NCBI GenBank assembly: GCA_024102815.1
Contig: JAGFJJ010000010.1
Coordinates: forward strand, 1 to 64,000
Direction: 5' to 3'
Length of the DNA stretch: 64,000 nt
Source of the DNA: Phycisphaerae bacterium
Lineage (GTDB): Bacteria; Planctomycetota; Phycisphaerae; UBA1845
Under the pieces are notes generated by a model. That model ran no database searches, was not told where the DNA came from, and saw only the letters and a program-made list of their open reading frames with translations. Each line of letters opens with the position of its first letter. Within the stretch, counting starts at the first letter, position 1. Positions 20,350-41,680 of the stretch are shown in pieces. The position numbers and the translations under genes were made by a program.

Positions 20350-20593
20350 CCCCGGAAGCGAGGCGACCAGCAGCGACTGACCGGCAGAAACCCACCGGCA
20401 TGACACGGCGCGCTATGAGCATGGTGCAACCCACAACACGCGCCCGGCGACCGGAATTTCGCGAAATGCAGCACGCAATCGGCGACAGAACAAAGAACCG
20501 TAGGCTTCCGCTCTCCGATTCCCTCCGTTCCGGCGCAAACTGGAATTCAGACCCTCCCCGGAATCTCATCCGGCACGGCTCGTGAGCCAATCT
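20350..20593. other. Gene-free stretch
   Basis: No supported gene. Together with the repeat array to its right it separates two convergent genes by 486 bp. Confidence 0.5.
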
Positions 20594-20840
20594 TGCTATT
20601 GCCTACTGCCTATTATTGCCTCTTGCCTGCTGCCTATTGCCTACTGCCTATTGCCTTTCTTCTCTTCCCCTTCGTGCCTCCGTGCCTCCGTGGCTACGTC
20701 GCTTCTTCCTCCGTGCCTCCGTGCCATCTTCCTACTGCCTACTGCCTATTGCCTATTGCCTACTGCCTATTGCCTATTGCCTTCCTTCTCTTCCCCTCCG
20801 TGCCTCCGTGCCTCCGTGGCTACGTCGCTTCTTCCTCAAC
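20594..20840 (-). repeat. Long composite heptad/octad repeat
   Basis: Two near-identical ~110-bp units, each with heptads (CTATTGC series), CTTCTCTTCCCC and octads (GTGCCTCC). The G-rich strand is the minus strand, which codes for the adjacent hemerythrin-like gene whose stop it abuts. Confidence 0.9.
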
Positions 20841-21291
20841 TCTCCCCCCCGATATCATGCCACAGCGCCAGGTACAGCACCCGGTCCTCCTCCGCCTCGT
20901 GCCGCCGCACCACCGCGATCAGCTCCCGCACCCGCGCCGCGAACACGAACCGGTCCTCCAGACCAAGATCGGCCAGCGTCTCCGACGTCCGAATCAGCCG
21001 GTCCAGAGCGCCGATCATCGTCGAGTGCTCATTCCGCAGCGCCTCGAACTGGGCCAAATAGCGCGGAGCGATCTCCTTCGCATCCTTCGGCGTCTCCAAT
21101 ACACCGATGGCATGATGAATCCGCATCTGCGCGTGAAGCTCGCGAAGGGCCTGATCAATCACACCGAGATCACAGCCCTCCACCCCGCCATCACGACCTT
21201 CGTCCAGAATCCGCTCCAGCCGGTCCACGAAAGGCCCGATTTCGCTGGCGCGCGTTTGCCCGCTCTCCATTTCCGACGGTAAGCTGGACAT
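20836..21291 (-). CDS. Hemerythrin-like helical protein
   Basis: 151 aa, all helical. Histidines and carboxylates sit in a hemerythrin-like spacing: MRIHHAIGVLE, LRNEHSTMIGALDRLIR, and VVRRHEAEEDRVLYLALWHD. The canonical H-HxxxE-HxxxH-HxxxxD pattern is not exact, so metal binding is plausible but unproven. It is divergent from the selenoprotein gene across about 200 bp, which may suggest a common redox or oxygen theme. Confidence 0.65.
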   Translation of the reverse strand: MSSLPSEMESGQTRASEIGPFVDRLERILDEGRDGGVEGCDLGVIDQALRELHAQMRIHHAIGVLETPKDAKEIAPRYLAQFEALRNEHSTMIGALDRLIRTSETLADLGLEDRFVFAARVRELIAVVRRHEAEEDRVLYLALWHDIGGES

Positions 21292-21470: not shown

Positions 21471-21494
21471 TCGTCCCATGACTGGAGAACCGCA

Positions 21495-21845
21495 ATGCCC
21501 GCGAAGATCGACTGGTACTACCATCGCAAGGGCTGAACGACCTGCGGAAAAACGCAGGGGTACCTTGCGAAGAACAACCTGGAACCGAAGGAAATCATCG
21601 ACGCCAAGGCCAGACTCGGCCAAAGCGACGCACTCGAACTGGCACGATCCGCCTCGACCGTCATTGCCGCCAAGGGCAAAAACGTGGTGCGCTTCAATAT
21701 GAAAATGGACCCGCCGGACGATGCCACGCTTCTGTCACACATGCTCGGCCCGACCGGCAACCTGCGCGCCCCCACGCTCCGCATCGGCAAGACCCTGCTG
21801 ATCGGCTTCGACGAGCAGACCTACGGCGACATACTGGGAGCCTGA
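21495..21845 (+). CDS. ArsC-family selenoprotein (UGA = Sec14)
   Basis: The frame opens at ATG 21495 after GGAGAA and meets TGA at 21534-21536. It then continues coding for 102 codons to TGA 21843. Read with selenocysteine at the first TGA, the product is a 116-aa thioredoxin-fold protein of the ArsC/Spx family. It has WYYHRKG-U-TTCGK at the N-terminus, so U replaces the first Cys of a CxxC motif. The C-terminal half carries GPTGNLRAPTLRIGKTLLIG, the cis-Pro region typical of this family. The redox family is known in which some members have Cys and others Sec here. A 6-bp stem with a G-initiated loop follows the TGA. Standard gene calling misses or truncates this gene. Confidence 0.88.
21541..21558 (+). 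promoter_or_regulatory. Candidate bacterial SECIS hairpin
   Basis: CCTGCG-GAAAAA-CGCAGG, a perfect 6-bp stem with a loop that begins with G, starting 5 nt after the in-frame TGA. Bacterial SECIS elements lie directly after the UGA and need a G at the start of the apical loop. The loop here (10 nt after the UGA) is somewhat closer than usual. Confidence 0.6.
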
Positions 21846-21977
21846 CGCCAATCAAACGGAAGTCGCGCCGCCAGGCGCACTGCGGTCATTTTCGGGGGGA
21901 CTCCGTAGAATCTGCGGTGCGGACCAGCTATGCAGCGGCTCGGAAGGTCGTTGTTCATCAACGAAAACTGGACAGGC

Positions 21978-22664
21978 ATGCTCATCGCCGAAATTTTCCA
22001 CAGCATCCAGGGCGAAGGAAAGCTCGCCGGCGTGCCCAGCGCCTTCATCCGCACCAGTGGCTGCAACCTCCGCTGCTCCTGGTGCGACACGCCGTACACG
22101 TCCTGGGAGCCCGAAGGCGAAGAATTGTCGATCGATCAGATTCTCGCGCGCATTCGCGAGTACGCCGTCACGCATGTCGTCCTCACCGGCGGCGAGCCTC
22201 TCATCGTTCCCGGTGTCGAGCAGTTGTCCCGCGCCCTCGTCGAAGGCGGCCACCATCTGACCATTGAAACCGCCGCCACCGTCTGGAAGGACGTCGCCTG
22301 CGACCTCGCCAGCCTTAGCCCCAAGCTTGCCAACTCCACGCCCTGGCAGCGCGAGTCAGGCCGCTGGGCCCTGGCCCACGAGCGCTCCCGCATCCACGCC
22401 GACGTCATCCGCCGTTTCATGGAATTCCCGGATTATCAATTGAAATTCGTCGTCGAGAATCCTGACGACCTGAAGGAAATCGATGATTTGCTTGCCGAAC
22501 TCGGCCCCGTCCCCACGACCAACGTCCTGCTCATGCCCCAGGGTCTGACCGCCGACGAAATCAACGCTCGCTCATCCTGGCTTGCCCGCCTCTGCCTCGA
22601 CCGCGGATTCCGCTACTGCCCCCGCCTGCACATCGAACTCTTCGGCAACACCCGCGGCACGTGA
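21978..22664 (+). CDS. queE: 7-carboxy-7-deazaguanine synthase
   Basis: A radical SAM enzyme that converts 6-carboxytetrahydropterin to 7-carboxy-7-deazaguanine in queuosine/7-deazaguanine synthesis. The CxxxCxxC cluster motif is SGCNLRCSWCDTPY, about residues 27-38. The HSIQGEG substrate loop (residues 8-14), TGGEPL, and the FVVEN strand are also present. ATG 21978 (MLIAEIFHSIQGEG) is the conserved start; the frame extends 16 codons upstream. About 229 aa, normal for the family. No other queuosine gene is adjacent. Confidence 0.96.
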   Translation: MLIAEIFHSIQGEGKLAGVPSAFIRTSGCNLRCSWCDTPYTSWEPEGEELSIDQILARIREYAVTHVVLTGGEPLIVPGVEQLSRALVEGGHHLTIETAATVWKDVACDLASLSPKLANSTPWQRESGRWALAHERSRIHADVIRRFMEFPDYQLKFVVENPDDLKEIDDLLAELGPVPTTNVLLMPQGLTADEINARSSWLARLCLDRGFRYCPRLHIELFGNTRGT

Positions 22665-22683: not shown

Positions 22684-22897
22684 GGCCTACTGCCTATTGT
22701 CTATTGCCTATTGCCTATTGCTTATTGCCTTTCTTCTCTTCCCCTTCGTGGCTCCGTCGCTTTGTCGCTCCGTGGCTTCTTCTTCTCTGCTTCGTGCCTC
22801 CGTGCCTCCGTGCCATCGTGCCTTCTTCCTACTGCCTATTGCCTATTGCCTACTGCCTTTCTTCTCTTCCCCTTCGTGCCTACGTGCCTTCTTCCTC
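22684..22897 (-). repeat. Composite repeat between convergent queE and GGDEF gene
   Basis: Two heptad-linker-octad blocks. The G-rich strand is the minus strand, the coding strand of the GGDEF gene, whose stop codon lies inside the array (product ends EEEGT). Confidence 0.9.
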
Positions 22898-24196: not shown

Positions 24197-25455
24197 GATG
24201 ACGCATCCTCCCCGCCGGAGCGGCCTGCGTCGGACTCACCGTTTCCGCGATCTCCGCGCTTTCCCCCCGCATCCCGCATCCGCGGCACAAACGCCGCAAC
24301 ATCATCACCCAGCAACTCACGCAGCTCGGCCTCGCTCAGCAAAGGCTCCTCCCGCCGCGCACGCGACGTCGAACCCTTGGCGGATTCCGATGCCTCTCCC
24401 GGTTGGAAACTTTCCGCGGCAGGCGCGCTCGACTCTGCCGCCGGCGAGGTCAACCGCGCGTCGCCCGCCTCCTGTTCGCCCGCTTTCTTTCCGCCCGCTT
24501 CCAGTTCACCCGCTTTCTGAAATACGTTTCCCTTTGGATCACCGCCACGATCCGCGGACGTCGCTTCCTTCGATCCCGCCTCTGCGCTTCCCGGCTTTCG
24601 CCTGACCGGCCGACCCTCATACTGCTTCCACGGAACCCGCACCCCCTCGGCCCCGCCTTGGCCGGCTATCTCTTCTTCTTGATGGGTCCGTGCTTCCGTC
24701 GCTTTTTCCTTCTTCCCCTCCGCGCCTTCGTGCCTTCTTCCTTCTTCCCCTTCGTCGCTCCGTGGCTTCGTGGCCCCGTGGCTTGCTTCTCCCTGTTGCC
24801 TGTTGCCCGTTGCCTGTTGCCCCTTCTCTGCTTCGTGCCTCCGTGCCTCCGTGCCTTCGTGCCTTCTTCCTTCTTCCCCTTCGTCGCTCCGTGGCTTCGT
24901 GGCTTCGTCGCTTCTTCTCTCCACCCACCGTTCCGCCCTCGCCTTCGCCAAGACCTTCACGCCGCCCGCGCGCTCCAGCCGCTCCAGCAATCCGCCGTCG
25001 GCCCCCCCGCGATACACCACCACTTCGGGCCCTCCGCGCATGCGCGACAGAATCCCGAAAAACTCCTCATCTTCCGGATCGAGGTCGCGCGTCCGGACGA
25101 TCACCGCGTCCCATAAACACTTCGATTCACCTTCATGACCATCCCCCCCCACGATCATTGCCATCGCCTGAAAAACATCCGGGCACGCAACCACCTCCGC
25201 CCCCGCCTCGCGCAGCCGCGCTTCAACCGCGCCGACCAGCGCCTCATCTTCAACCCCGGCCGACTTCTCCGCCGGGCTCGGGATCTTGCTTCCCGGGCTC
25301 CATGAGCTCCGTCGCACGCCCGACTCGGCGCCCGGCCCGCTCCGAGCCCCGTTCAACGGCGATTTCTGACCCTCTTTTCCCGGGAATTCTCGGACGAACG
25401 CAGGTGTTCGGACATGAAGCACGCGAAACGCGGATGTTGGGGCCTCGGCGGTCAT
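24193..25455 (-). CDS. Receiver-like regulator with repeat-derived middle, GGDEF partner
   Basis: About 420 aa from ATG 25455; an in-frame start at 25527 is possible. Residues about 60-180 look like a receiver-type alpha/beta domain (VEARLREAGAEVVACPDVFQ, then WDAVIVRTRDL, then PEVVVYRGG, KVLAKA). The centre (about 180-265) is translated from the octad/heptad repeat family. The C-terminus is acidic and low in complexity with a final helix LSEAELRELLGDDVAAF. Function is inferred only from its coupling to the diguanylate cyclase. It probably tolerates the insert because the middle is a disordered linker. Confidence 0.65.
   Translation of the reverse strand: MTAEAPTSAFRVLHVRTPAFVREFPGKEGQKSPLNGARSGPGAESGVRRSSWSPGSKIPSPAEKSAGVEDEALVGAVEARLREAGAEVVACPDVFQAMAMIVGGDGHEGESKCLWDAVIVRTRDLDPEDEEFFGILSRMRGGPEVVVYRGGADGGLLERLERAGGVKVLAKARAERWVERRSDEATKPRSDEGEEGRRHEGTEARRHEAEKGQQATGNRQQGEASHGATKPRSDEGEEGRRHEGAEGKKEKATEARTHQEEEIAGQGGAEGVRVPWKQYEGRPVRRKPGSAEAGSKEATSADRGGDPKGNVFQKAGELEAGGKKAGEQEAGDARLTSPAAESSAPAAESFQPGEASESAKGSTSRARREEPLLSEAELRELLGDDVAAFVPRMRDAGGKRGDRGNGESDAGRSGGEDASS
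24684..24920 (-). repeat. Composite repeat inside the GGDEF-partner gene
   Basis: Octads, GAAGGGGAAGAAGG linkers and heptads of the CAACAGG form read in frame on the coding strand. The heptads carry CAG/CGG in place of TAG, so no stop occurs. Confidence 0.9.
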
Positions 25456-25757: not shown

Positions 25758-25945
25758 ATTCCCTCTTCTCTTCCCCTTCGTGGCTTCGTGGCTCCGTGGC
25801 TTCGTGGCTTCGTCGCTTCTTCCTCCGTGCCTCCGTGCCTTCGTGCCTTCTTCCTATTGCCTATTGCCTACTGCCTATTGCCTACTGCCTATTGCCTTTC
25901 TTCTCTTCCCCTTCGTCGCTCCGTGGCTTCGTGGCTTCTTCTCCC
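25758..25945 (-). repeat. Composite repeat upstream of phage-remnant gene
   Basis: Octads and heptads with the G-rich strand on minus, ending directly at the start codon of the next plus-strand gene. This is one of the two copies that do not follow the usual stop-codon orientation. Confidence 0.88.
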
Positions 25946-26859: not shown

Positions 26860-27015
26860 GCCGCCGTTCTTCTCTTCCCCCTTCGTGGCTCAGTGGCTCC
26901 GTGGCTTCGTGGCTTCTTCCTTCGTGCCTCCGTGCCTCCGTGCCTTCGTGCCTACTTCCTATTGCCTACTGCCTACTGCCTATTGCCTTTCTTCTCTCCC
27001 CCTTCGTGCCTTCTT
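26860..27015 (-). repeat. Composite repeat within the phage remnant
   Basis: Octads and heptads with the G-rich strand on minus although the neighbouring genes are on plus. The second orientation exception. Confidence 0.88.
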
Positions 27016-27829: not shown

Positions 27830-28234
27830 ACGGTGGCGGAGGGGGTGCGTAAGCCGAATTCTGTTCCCCGATCACTCGGGGCGGCGGTCATGTATCTGGG
27901 CCGGCGGTCGCCCGCCGGCTCGAGCACCCTACCCGCAGCTTACGGCCGGAGCCCGGCCGACGGAACGGGCCGCTCCTCGCTGCCTATTTGGGCTTGCTGG
28001 CGGTGGGGTTTGCCCTGCCGCGACCGTCACCGGCCGCGCGGTGCGCTCTTACCGCACCTTTTCACCCTTGCCGTCCGCCGGTCGCCCGGCGGCTTGGGCG
28101 GTGTCTTTTCTGTGGCACTTTCCCTCGGCTTGCGCCGGGTTGGCGTTACCAACCACCGTGCCCTGCCCAGTTCGGACTTTCCTCCCGATCGCCTGTGGCG
28201 ATCGCGCGACCACCCGCACCCCCTCCGCCACCGT
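27830..28234 (-). ncRNA. rnpB: RNase P RNA (class A)
   Basis: The minus strand carries the conserved landmarks of bacterial RNase P RNA in order: GAGGAAAGTCCGAACT, GGGAAAGTGCCACAGAA, GGTGAAAAGGTGCGGTAAG, GGCAGGGCAAACCCCACC, AAATAGGCAGCGAGG, and a 3' ACAGAATTCGGCTTACG. The molecule matures the 5' ends of tRNAs. The two ends pair in a perfect 23-bp inverted repeat (27827-27849 with 28215-28237), longer than a usual P1 helix. This is followed on the minus strand by CGTTTTTTCAC, which suggests a terminator fused to P1. Exact ends are uncertain by about 10 nt. Confidence 0.95.
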
Positions 28235-28262: not shown

Positions 28263-28388
28263 TCCGACCATGCGCAAATCGCACGGCCGCACGTTCTACA
28301 AATTGTAAGACTGGAATCTTGCTTGAATCGATCGGCGTGTACGCCCCGCCCGCGGAACTACATCGTCCCCCCGGAGCGTCTTCCCGGT

Positions 28389-28545
28389 GCCCATTGCCTA
28401 TTGCCTCTCCTCTCTTCCCCTCCGTGTCTTCGTCGCTTCGTGGCTCCGTGGCTTCTTCCTATTGCCTACTGCCCATTGCCTATTGCCTCTCCTCTCTTCC
28501 CCTCTGTGGCTTCGTCGCTTCGTGGCTCCGTGGCTTCTTCGCCAA
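28389..28545 (-). repeat. Composite repeat at herA 3' end
   Basis: On the minus (coding) strand the order is octads, GGGGAAGAG, heptads, octads, linker, heptads, beginning right at the herA stop codon. Confidence 0.9.
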
Positions 28546-35779: not shown

Positions 35780-36001
35780 CCACGAAGCGACGAAGCCACG
35801 GAGGGAAGAAAGGCAATAGAAGCTGTTTCAAAACCCCTGTGACACCGCGTTTTCAGTAGCCCCGGGCCAGATGCCGGGCAGTTTTGAAATGGCTTCTAGG
35901 CAATAGGCAATAGGCAATAGGCAATAGGCAATAGGCAATAGGCAATAGGCAATAGGCAATAGGCAATAGGCAATAGGCAATAGGCAATAGGCAATAGGAA
36001 G
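35778..36001 (+). repeat. Composite repeat with about 14 perfect heptads
   Basis: Octads start at the paralog 2 stop codon and are followed by GGGAAGAAA and then heptads. From 35899 there are about 14 perfect GGCAATA copies, the longest array in the window. A 78-bp MITE-like element interrupts it at 35819-35896. Confidence 0.92.
35819..35896. mobile_element. 78-bp MITE with TA duplication
   Basis: Terminal inverted repeats GAAGCTGTTTCAAAAC and GTTTTGAAATGGCTTC match at 14 of 16 positions. The element is flanked by TA at 35817-35818 and 35897-35898. Removing it and one TA restores the exact 7-bp register of the heptad array, which proves insertion. The ends match the IS5-family IS at 47552-48472 at 11 of 14 positions. 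Confidence 0.85.
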
Positions 36002-37379: not shown

Positions 37380-37480
37380 AGAAGGCACGGAGGGGAAGAG
37401 AAGAAAGGCAATAGGCAGTAGGCAGTAGGCAAGAGGAAAAAGGCACGGAGGCACGAAGCGACGGAGGGGAAGAGAAGAGG
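37380..37480 (+). repeat. Composite repeat after membrane protein gene
   Basis: Octad, GGGGAAGAG linker, heptads and octads begin immediately after the TGA stop. G-rich strand equals coding strand. Confidence 0.9.
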
Positions 37481-37532
37481 CCCCCGGGGGGAATGTTGAC
37501 CGTCGGGGGGCGGTCGGATACCACGCGGGGTC

Positions 37533-40500
37533 ATGTCGGTTCGATTCATCATCGGGCGAGCGGGCACGGGCAAGACGCACTACTGTCTGCAATCCGTCCG
37601 GGAGAACCTCAAGCAAAGTCCGGTTGACGGGCCACGGTTGATCGTACTGGTTCCGGAGCAGGCGGCGCTGCAAACGGAGCGGTCGCTGCTGGAGTCGGGC
37701 GGCGTGGGGGCTGCGCATCGCGCGGAAGCGCTGTCGTTCCGGCGACTGGCGATGAAGGTATTGGAATCGACCGGCGGTTCGGACCGGATGGCACTGTCCG
37801 AGCCGGCGCGGGCGATGGTGCTGCGGCACCTCGTACACGTGCACGGGAAGAAGCTTCAGTATTACCGGCGGGTGGATCGGCTGGGCGGGTTTCTGGAGCG
37901 ACTGGGGGGAACGATCTCGGAGCTGATGCAGGAGTGCGTGGGGCCGGAAGAGTTGGTTAGAAGAAGGCACGGAGGCACGAGGGCACGGAGGAACGGAGGA
38001 AGAAGCGACGAAGCCACGAAGCCACGGAGGCACGAAGGAGAAGAAAGAAGAAGGCACGGAGGCACGGAGGCACGGAGGCACGGAGGAAGAAGCGACGAAG
38101 CGACGGAGCCACGGAGCCACGAAGGGGAAGAAAGAAAAAGGCACGGAGGCACGAAGGCACAGAGGAACGAAGGGGAAGAGAAAGACTGGGGGGATGATCC
38201 GCTGCGGGCGGCGAAGCTGGCGGATGTGGCGCGGTTGTATCGAGCTTATCTCGATTACCTGGGTGACAGCCGGGTTGATCCGACGCAGTATCTCGATCTG
38301 GCGCGGGAGCGCATCGCGCGGTGCGGGTGGTTAAGCGGGGCGCTGCTGTGGATGGATGGGTTCGCGTCGGTGAGCCGGCAGGAGATGCGGATTCTGCTGG
38401 AGTTGGGGAAGGTCTGCCGGCGGGTTGAAATCTGCCTGATGGGCGATCCCGGGGCGATGCACACGGCGGGACGGTCGGGCGGGGAGCTGGAATCTCTGCG
38501 GTTGTTTCGGCGGCTGGAGGAAACGCGGGAAGACCTGGAGCAGGCGTTTGCGGAAGCCGGCGTGGAGATCGAATCCCCCCTGCTGCTGAAGGGTCGGCCG
38601 GGACGGTTTCGGGACGGTTCGATGCTGGCGACGATGGAGGCGCGATGGACGGGGAATGGGGAATGCGGAATTGTGAATGGGGAAGGAATAGAAAAAGACG
38701 ATCCGCATAGCGGACCCTGCGGAACGGGGAATGCGGAATTCGGAATTGCGGAAGAAGAAGCGCTCGGAGCAGACGCGCGGGTTGAGACGGGTGGGTCCGA
38801 GGAAAGACCACAAGGTGGTGCGTCGGGGGACGCACCCTACGAAGGCTCAGAACGAGCGCGCGAAGCAAGCGTAATCGGAAGGACCGCGCAGGCTGAAGCC
38901 TGCGGCTCGTTGGGCGGGATCGAGCTGGTTGAATTGCCAACGCGGCGGGTCGAGGTCGAGTATGCAGTGTCAAGGATCTGTCAGTGGCTGCGCGGCGAGG
39001 ATGGTGCGCCCCCCCACCGCCTGCGGGACACGGCCATCATCGTGCGGGACCTGGAGCCCTATCACGATCTGATCACGGCGGCCCTTTCCGCGCGGAACAT
39101 TCCACACTTCATCGATCGCCGGCGCCCGATCGGGCATCACCCAATCGTCGAACTGCTTCGCTGCGCAGTGAAGCTGGTCGTTGATGACCTGCCCCTGGAT
39201 TCGATGCGGACGCTGCTCAAAACGGGCTTGTTGCCGCTCGGCGCTTCGGACGCGGACGCGTTGGAGAACGCGCTGATCGCCCGGGGTATCGAGGGGATCG
39301 AGGCATGGCGCCAAGCGTGGCCGGCGTGGACGGAGGCCGGTGGCGATCGCGGAATGCACCGTGAGCAAGCGTACGAGGAAGCGCTCGCGGCGCAGGTGAA
39401 TCAAGCGCGCGAGAGCATACTGGGAGTACTGGAGCCGTGGCTGGACGTCGTGCAGCGGGAGGCGGTGCTCAGCGGGCCGGCGTGGGCGGAGGCGATTCGG
39501 TCGTGGCTCAAGCACCTGAATGCGGCCGGAACGCTTGCCGCGTGGAGCACCGAGGCGGAGCGACGGGGGGATGCGGACGAGGCGAACGAGCATCGGCAGG
39601 CGTGGCGGGACGTGGCGGCGTTTCTGGACGATCTCGAGGGCGCGTTCGCGGAGACAGAACTGGCGACGGAAGAACTCGCCCGTGTGCTGGAGCACGGCCT
39701 GGCGGCGCTGACGCTGGGGCTGGCGCCGCCGATGGTAGACCAGGTGCTGGTGGGATCGATCGAGCGGAGCCGGCATCCGAACATCCGATCGGCGGTGCTG
39801 CTGGGGTTCAACGACGGGATGTTCCCGCGACGTATCGCGGAAGACGCCATTCTGAACGACGAGGATCGAACGTTTCTGCGGGGGCGCGGATTGCGCGTGG
39901 CGCCGCCATCGCGGGAGAGACTGCTCGACGAGCGCTTGCTGGTGTACATCGCCCTGACGCGGCCGAGTGAGCGCATGGTGATCACATGGGCGGCGGCGGA
40001 CGACGACGGCCGGGCGCTGCGGGCATCGCCGTTTGTCGAGGCGGTGAAGGGATCGGTTGCGGGTTTGGAAACAGCGAGTGTGGGCGATCCGGTTCGGACG
40101 CGGAGCTTCTGGGACATTCAGACGATTCAAGAGGCGGCGCGGCGAATCGGAATGGAGATGCGGAACCGGCCGTCACGGGCGGAAGATGAAGAAGGCGTTC
40201 GGGGGGCGTGGAATGGGCTGTATGAGTCGCTGCGGGGGGAAATGAAGAATGCGGAATGCGGAATGGGGAATGCGGAGAGAACAGGCGGCGAGGAAGATGG
40301 TTCGTCGGGGGACGCACCCTACGAGTTGCGGGCGTTGGGGGCGGAGCGCGAGGCGCGGCTGACCGCGGAATCCGTGCAGACGCTGTTTGGCGGCACGCTA
40401 CGGATGAGCGTTTCGCAACTGGAATCCTACGCGGCGTGTCCGTTCCAGCACTTTGCGCGGTTTTCGCTGCGGCTGCGCGAGCGGCAGACGTCGGAGATGG

Positions 40501-41534
40501 CGGCGGTGGACATGGGCCGGGTGCATCACGCGGTGCTGGAGCGAACCGTTCAGGAGATCATCAGTCGCAAGCATGATCTTGTGGCGATGGACGAGGATGC
40601 GCTGGGCGGCGTCGTGGAGGACGTATGCGCGGCCGTGGGCAAGGAACTGGAGGATGCGGCGCGCGTATCGCAGGCGCGGGATCGCTACCAGTTGCGTCGT
40701 ACGGCGGAGGAGTTGCGTAGAATCCTCCAGGCGCAACGCCGGATAGCGGGTGCGGGTCGCATGCGGCCTGCGGCGGTGGAACTGGGTTTCGGATTTGACG
40801 AGCCGGGCTCATTGCCGGCGCTGGAGGTGTCGACACCGAATGGGCGGAAGATGCTCGTGCGCGGATATATCGACCGAGTGGATCTGGCGGATCTGGCCGG
40901 GGAGATGCTCGGCGTGGTCATCGACTACAAGCGGACGCGGCATCGCACGCTTGATCTCGGACAGGTGTTTCACGGGCTGTCGCTGCAACTGCCGGCGTAT
41001 CTGCTGGTGCTGGCGGCGCGGGGCGAGGCGCTGGCGGGCCGGCCGGTTCGTCCGGTGGGTGCGTTCTTCGTGACGCTGGAGCGGACGTATCAATCGGTGG
41101 TGCATCCGGATGCGAAAAAGGGGGACGACGACGAGGATCCGGCGAGCGGCGTGGGGAAACCGCGTGGTGTGCTGCTCGGCGACCATGTGGATGTGCTGGA
41201 AATGATCGGGTCCGGCGGGCAGTCGGCGTGCTACAACTTTCGATGGAAGAAGGACGGGGACATCGCGGCGATCGATCGCAGCGACGGGGCGGACGCGGCG
41301 GGTTTCGACAAGATCATGGCGATTGCGCTGCGGCGGATCGGGGAGTTGGGTGACGCGATGATCGATGGTCGCGTAGAGGTGCGGCCGTTTCGGATGACGG
41401 GCACGACCTCGCCGTGTACATGGTGCAAGATGATGCCGGTGTGCCGGTTCGAGTTCGCACCGGACCGGGTGCGGTATCTGGAGAGATTGGGACGGAAGGA
41501 AGTGATGGGAGGGAGCAGGCACGAAGGCACGTAG
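37533..41534 (+). CDS. addB: AddB-type helicase/nuclease subunit with repeat-derived inserts
   Basis: 1333 aa. This is the AddB/RexB subunit of a RecBCD-like enzyme that processes double-strand breaks. Residues 8-15 hold a P-loop GRAGTGKT. A PD-(D/E)XK nuclease near the C-terminus shows RGYIDRVD, VIDYKRT and the Q-motif SLQLPAYL. The Fe-S cysteines are in YAACPFQHF (about 968) and CTWCKMMPVC (about 1295-1304). Around 200 residues more than usual come from three inserts made of dispersed repeats, at about 37957-38190, 38645-38930 and 40235-40330. All are in frame and hydrophilic. The C-terminus (RHEGT) also reads into a repeat. No addA lies in the window. Confidence 0.92.
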   Translation: MSVRFIIGRAGTGKTHYCLQSVRENLKQSPVDGPRLIVLVPEQAALQTERSLLESGGVGAAHRAEALSFRRLAMKVLESTGGSDRMALSEPARAMVLRHLVHVHGKKLQYYRRVDRLGGFLERLGGTISELMQECVGPEELVRRRHGGTRARRNGGRSDEATKPRRHEGEERRRHGGTEARRHGGRSDEATEPRSHEGEERKRHGGTKAQRNEGEEKDWGDDPLRAAKLADVARLYRAYLDYLGDSRVDPTQYLDLARERIARCGWLSGALLWMDGFASVSRQEMRILLELGKVCRRVEICLMGDPGAMHTAGRSGGELESLRLFRRLEETREDLEQAFAEAGVEIESPLLLKGRPGRFRDGSMLATMEARWTGNGECGIVNGEGIEKDDPHSGPCGTGNAEFGIAEEEALGADARVETGGSEERPQGGASGDAPYEGSERAREASVIGRTAQAEACGSLGGIELVELPTRRVEVEYAVSRICQWLRGEDGAPPHRLRDTAIIVRDLEPYHDLITAALSARNIPHFIDRRRPIGHHPIVELLRCAVKLVVDDLPLDSMRTLLKTGLLPLGASDADALENALIARGIEGIEAWRQAWPAWTEAGGDRGMHREQAYEEALAAQVNQARESILGVLEPWLDVVQREAVLSGPAWAEAIRSWLKHLNAAGTLAAWSTEAERRGDADEANEHRQAWRDVAAFLDDLEGAFAETELATEELARVLEHGLAALTLGLAPPMVDQVLVGSIERSRHPNIRSAVLLGFNDGMFPRRIAEDAILNDEDRTFLRGRGLRVAPPSRERLLDERLLVYIALTRPSERMVITWAAADDDGRALRASPFVEAVKGSVAGLETASVGDPVRTRSFWDIQTIQEAARRIGMEMRNRPSRAEDEEGVRGAWNGLYESLRGEMKNAECGMGNAERTGGEEDGSSGDAPYELRALGAEREARLTAESVQTLFGGTLRMSVSQLESYAACPFQHFARFSLRLRERQTSEMAAVDMGRVHHAVLERTVQEIISRKHDLVAMDEDALGGVVEDVCAAVGKELEDAARVSQARDRYQLRRTAEELRRILQAQRRIAGAGRMRPAAVELGFGFDEPGSLPALEVSTPNGRKMLVRGYIDRVDLADLAGEMLGVVIDYKRTRHRTLDLGQVFHGLSLQLPAYLLVLAARGEALAGRPVRPVGAFFVTLERTYQSVVHPDAKKGDDDEDPASGVGKPRGVLLGDHVDVLEMIGSGGQSACYNFRWKKDGDIAAIDRSDGADAAGFDKIMAIALRRIGELGDAMIDGRVEVRPFRMTGTTSPCTWCKMMPVCRFEFAPDRVRYLERLGRKEVMGGSRHEGT
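37957..38190 (+). repeat. Octad repeat insert inside addB
   Basis: About 230 bp of GCACGGAG/CCACGAAG octads with GAAGGGGAAGA-type linkers, translated in frame as R/H/E/G-rich sequence (for example GGTEARRHGG). Confidence 0.92.
38645..38930 (+). repeat. GGAATGC heptads and palindromes inside addB
   Basis: Contains GGAATGC heptads, then two perfect 8-bp-stem hairpins: GGTGCGTC-GGGG-GACGCACC (38817-38836) and CGCAGGCT-GA-AGCCTGCG (38887-38904). The whole stretch is open in the addB frame. Confidence 0.85.
40235..40330 (+). repeat. Third repeat insert in addB
   Basis: GGAATGC-type heptads (40240-40285), followed by CGTCGGGGGACGCACCCTAC, which repeats the second half of the 38817 palindrome. Confidence 0.85.
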
Positions 41535-41680
41535 GCACGGAACTACGAACGGGAAGAGAAGAAAGGCAATAGGCAGCAGGCAATAGGCAATAGGAAGAAG
41601 GCACGGAGGTACGAAGCAGAGAAGAGGCAGCAGGCAAAAGGCAACAGGCAATGGGCAGTAGGCAATAGCAGGCAAGAGCG
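41512..41680 (+). repeat. Composite repeat at addB 3' end
   Basis: Octads start inside the last codons of addB, followed by GGGAAGAGAAG and heptads. The array reaches to within about 15 bp of the next start codon. Confidence 0.9.

Follow-up and report, generated by a model that had tools for sequence, protein, structure and literature searches.

A member of the NF041106 selenoprotein family with an in-frame UGA in a Phycisphaerae bacterium

The gene and its surroundings

The window (the whole stretch of 64 000 nucleotides analysed here) comes from a Phycisphaerae-type planctomycete with a draft assembly of 5.09 Mb in 79 contigs that is 95% complete. A real gene lies at 21495–21845 on the forward strand, and comparison with related sequences indicates that its own internal stop signal is almost certainly decoded as selenocysteine (Sec). 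The features of the locus are as follows.

21484–21487, + strand: Shine–Dalgarno-like GGAG, 7 nt upstream of the ATG at 21495
21495–21845, + strand: gene for an ArsC/Spx-type selenoprotein of 116 amino acids including Sec14, with Sec14 and Cys17 forming a UxxC pair; scored with NF041106 and Pfam ArsC
21534–21536, + strand: in-frame UGA at codon 14, almost certainly read as Sec; UGA occupies the same codon in relatives
21541–21558, + strand: hairpin CCUGCG-GAAAAA-CGCAGG, which exists in the sequence, has little conservation and cannot form together with the SECIS stem
21543–21545, + strand: codon of Cys17, which completes the UxxC pair and stands in an invariant alignment column
21553–21569, + strand: probable SECIS with a 7 bp stem (CGCAGGG/CCUUGCG) and the apical loop GUA, the loop lying 23 nt past the UGA

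Plain ORF calling misses this gene, the first 13 codons of which appear as the tail of a long TTG-initiated ORF that ends at the UGA. The first-pass annotation had described an ATG with a good ribosome site, a TGA at codon 14 followed by 102 further codons, and the family features TTCGK and GNLRAPTLRIGKTLL, and the sequence agrees throughout: GGAG precedes the ATG by 7 nt, 102 sense codons separate the TGA from a terminal TGA at 21843–21845, TTCGK comes directly after the internal TGA (U-T-T-C-G-K) and GNLRAPTLRIGKTLL is present too. With the UGA entered as Cys, the protein matches the NF041106 model [`ArsC family (seleno)protein'] over profile positions 1–107 of 107 with 134.3 bits against a cutoff of 85 (E = 2e-39), and its score with Pfam ArsC (23.4 bits) is marginally below the cutoff of 24. 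Downstream of the UGA, the protein shares 53–60% amino-acid identity with four relatives from the same class, and differences from these are about twice as frequent at third codon positions as at the other two. Because of the NF041106 E value, this pattern of identity and codon positions and the roughly 90 relatives with UGA at the same codon, the coding signal is far beyond chance. A search of the whole host genome found this single copy.

The gene is flanked by a gene for a hemerythrin-like HHE-domain protein (20839–21291, − strand) and, downstream, by a gene for a radical-SAM protein (21930–22664, + strand) that in Pfam matches only Radical_SAM and presumably resembles QueE. Among 79 loci analysed with crude ORF calls, a weak analysis, these two neighbours recur in few loci only, and the neighbourhoods offer no functional clue, with no recurring ars or redox operon. 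Elsewhere in the window, a bacterial class A RNase P RNA (266 bits) is located at 27834–28226 on the reverse strand. Low-complexity arrays of the 7-mers CCTATTG/CCTACTG and the 8-mers CCTCCGTG/CTTCGTGG are dispersed at the following positions.

20592–20828, 22685–22888, 24717–24908, 25775–25935, 26880–26988 and 28387–28540: 7-mer/8-mer arrays
35787–36001, 37406–38173, 41518–41668 and others: 7-mer/8-mer arrays, continued

As far as about 28.5 kb almost all of the arrays are on the forward strand, and from about 35.8 kb almost all are on the reverse strand; two probe patterns gave 60 and 54 matches, compared with 0.24 and 0.01 expected.

Relatives and the insertion signal

Members of the family were collected from three sets of genomes. 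In a sample of the phylum, 64 of 294 genomes scored above the NF041106 cutoff and 55 of the 65 places found carry one UGA; in a sample of the class, the corresponding figures are 35 of 298 genomes and 34 of 35, with 17 of the UGA-bearing members (the window counted) coming from the window's own family. A scan of named genomes yielded 80 loci (74 with UGA and six with Cys), a set that overlaps the phylum and class scans in that several contigs are common to both. These loci are mostly from Planctomycetota, with others from Acidobacteria, Wallbacteria, Tectomicrobia, Nitrospinae, Melainabacteria, Eisenbacteria and Proteobacteria, and the closest are in Phycisphaerae assemblies. Over 103 distinct sequences, the window included, the residue at the Sec site is UGA in 92, Cys in ten and Asp in one. 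The comparison with Cys homologues that had been proposed as a check thus shows UGA or Cys at this codon in the relatives and no random stops. The predicted active site, Sec14-Thr-Thr-Cys17, aligns with the UxxC or CxxC pair of about 100 relatives, and the invariant positions of the alignment are Arg11, site 14, Cys17, Lys38, Gly61, Gly85-Pro86-x-Gly88, Arg91, Pro93, Gly98 and Gly104. The single Asp (GAC) belongs to a genome with two members, the other of which has UGA; the Asp member retains the second Cys and has perhaps changed function. A tree of 101 proteins requires eight changes between Sec and non-Sec, at least six of them on well supported branches; it is built from few columns, so that its finer forks are unsure, and the direction of the changes is not fixed by the tree alone. 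No viral homologue was confirmed.

The published bSECIS model (PMC13188914) describes a loop of 3–9 nt with G within its first two positions, a stem of 4–16 bp, a distance of 16–37 nt from the UGA to the loop and a minimum free energy of at most −7.5. A test for a bacterial SECIS had been suggested, and a hairpin that fits this model in every respect was found 3′ of the UGA at 21553–21569 (a 3 nt loop, GUA, on 7 bp, 23 nt past the UGA, −9.6 kcal/mol). The best loops under the model lie 21–23 nt from the UGA in 74 of 92 Sec genes. The best G-loop hairpin has a mean energy of −11.7 kcal/mol in Sec genes compared with −8.4 in their synonymous shuffles, and of −9.2 kcal/mol in 11 non-Sec genes compared with −8.5. 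Stems of at least 5 bp occur at the SECIS position in 66% of Sec genes, in 21% of synonymous shuffles and in none of the 11 non-Sec genes. Within the same class the stem is kept in all 34 Sec genes, which is a cleaner figure than those from a set of 38 sequences consisting of these 34 and four others picked for a shared hairpin register. In that larger set, 98.9% of cells are paired, three pairs show changes on both sides (12 such cells against a shuffled mean of 2.0) and the pairing is lost when the partner arm is slid. In the named set, GU stands at the loop position in all 74 UGA loci and the stem reaches at least 5 bp in 69 of them and in none of the six Cys loci. Outside the class, some relatives, including many in which RADAF follows the UxxC, are without a hairpin at the exact SECIS position. 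Because of the compensatory changes, the presence in every one of the 34 Sec genes of the class and the absence from the non-Sec homologues examined, the 21553–21569 hairpin is probably the SECIS.

A different hairpin, with a 6 bp stem and a G-first loop after the TGA, had been pointed out in the first-pass annotation. It exists (21541–21558, loop GAAAAA), and when the 48 nt that follow the UGA in the window are folded for minimum energy, it is even preferred to the SECIS stem; its 3′ arm is shared with the 5′ arm of the 21553–21569 hairpin. As a candidate SECIS it was rejected on conservation and spacing: all six pairs are intact in only seven of the 34 same-class Sec genes, 77.2% of cells are paired (close to the shuffled 76.4%) and the loop begins 10 nt past the UGA, outside the range of the bSECIS model. 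A functional SECIS role for it is therefore unlikely.

Decoding of codon 14

The expectation that the host makes selenocysteine, and the search for selA, selB, selC and selD proposed to examine it, are answered by the genome, which contains all four genes. On contig C11, selB scores above its profile cutoff and is immediately followed by selA (579 bits). The tRNA-Sec (selC; 66 bits), with the anticodon UCA, is on contig C76. The selD gene (360 bits) has one in-frame UGA within the active-site loop SSCAGUAGK; the host SelD (contig C31, 207848–208771) is thus a selenoprotein itself. Across the genomes tested, selA is above the cutoff in 44 of 44 Sec-type genomes compared with three of ten Cys-only genomes.

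We are highly confident that this gene is decoded by SelB-dependent Sec insertion to give a small UxxC protein of the ArsC/Spx superfamily, most likely an oxidoreductase of the thiol/disulfide type. In the proposed sequence of events, SelA would use selenophosphate from SelD to form Sec-tRNA(UCA), and SelB would bind the 21553–21569 hairpin just 3′ of codon 14 and bring the Sec-tRNA to the ribosome at the UGA, and translation would then run on to the UGA at 21843. In the product, Sec14 would attack and Cys17 would resolve the selenenylsulfide, a catalytic chemistry predicted from the motif. The initial description of the gene as an ArsC-family selenoprotein with an in-frame UGA is supported by the NF041106 match, the Sec machinery, the UGA and Cys homologues and the hairpin.

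Two other accounts of the UGA have a negligible probability in our estimate. It might stem from a sequencing error or from a Cys codon mutated to a stop, the gene then being a pseudogene, as a single base change turns TGC or TGT into TGA and homologues with Cys do exist; however, about 90 distinct relatives spread over many families and 74 of the 80 named loci from several phyla have UGA at the same codon, the protein is conserved downstream of it and the conserved hairpin belongs to the UGA genes and is absent from the Cys genes. This account is already refuted by independent genomes, in which the UGA and the SECIS are both conserved. The codon might instead be read as a residue other than Sec, for example as Trp through a variant code, which would equally leave the frame open once the UGA is read. 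Against this, homologues that lack Sec at the site have Cys there (ten of 11), the genome holds the full Sec machinery together with a conserved SECIS-like hairpin, and the terminal stop of the gene is itself a UGA.

Function and place in the family

The family suggests a thioredoxin fold for the selenoprotein. A profile search of solved structures returned Spx as the best match (E = 4e-8), followed by the putative arsenate reductase 2m46, YffB and glutaredoxins; the Spx match spans nearly the full length of the selenoprotein, with the CxxC aligned. The arsC model TIGR00014 has no match in the host genome at an E value of 0.001, the selenoprotein gene included, and it is absent among the profile matches of the selenoprotein up to E = 1. 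Scores with the Spx models are far below their cutoffs (22.4 against 75.05 bits for TIGR01617 and 14.4 against 123 bits for PRK01655). From the absence of TIGR00014 and the low Spx scores, together with the motif and the family, a role as a Sec-x-x-Cys thiol oxidoreductase is favoured.

A selenium-dependent arsenate reductase appears unlikely. The family name is related to ArsC, reviews speak of an arsenate reductase-like protein (PMC13188914, PMC9312934) and the Pfam ArsC score is so near its cutoff; on the other side stand the missing TIGR00014 match in the genome, the closeness of the solved Spx structures, the lack of a recurring ars operon among the neighbours (79 loci, crude ORF calls) and the motif, UxxC here as against UxxS in the selenium arsenate reductases that have been described. 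The `ArsC-family' label of the first-pass annotation therefore holds as a family placement, through NF041106, and is not to be read as arsenate reductase, since TIGR00014 finds nothing and Spx proteins are the nearest relatives of solved structure; the selenoprotein is probably not such an enzyme. We give a similarly low chance to an Spx-like redox regulator that would bind RNA polymerase and carry Sec in its redox switch. The nearly full-length PDB matches to Spx with an aligned CxxC speak for it, and the scores far below the TIGR01617 and PRK01655 cutoffs speak against it. A broader proposal is decidedly improbable. In it, the whole family would be a selenium-dependent Spx-like transcriptional redox switch that is widespread in Planctomycetota and extends to Acidobacteria and further phyla; Sec would probably be the ancestral state, and Cys versions would have arisen several times as the SECIS was lost. 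The thiol oxidoreductase remains the favoured role.

Compared with known systems, the window protein shows no difference of substance from NF041106: it shares a full-length match above the curated cutoff, the UxxC motif, the position of the Sec codon and the mixture of Sec and Cys members, and is one more planctomycete member. With Spx/MgsR (TIGR01617; PDB entries 1z3e, 3gfk and 7f75) it is related at the profile level, and CxxC, G-x-L-R-x-P and VG[FY] align, but Sec replaces the first Cys and the scores are far below the Spx cutoffs. With the ArsC arsenate reductases (TIGR00014) it has in common the superfamily name and a weak Pfam ArsC similarity; it differs from the selenium form of ArsC, which is UxxS (PMC1088965), and TIGR00014 is without a match in the host genome. 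NF041106 is listed as `Arsenate reductase-like protein, UxxC' in PMC13188914 (2026), and an entry with the same name and motif in PMC9312934 (2022) cites the GOS survey (PMC2398784; 2008), in which `Arsenate reductase 2, cd03032, UxxC' comprises 42 Sec sequences and is probably the same group. From these entries it is well supported that the gene is a new example of an already catalogued selenoprotein family and not a discovery.

A gene interrupted by a stop codon and missed by plain ORF calling has thus been confirmed by several lines of evidence, and its probable SECIS has been placed. Within one phylum, the hairpin is found in most UGA genes and is absent from the sampled Cys genes, and the NF041106 family lends itself well, as a natural series, to the study of Sec and Cys exchange.
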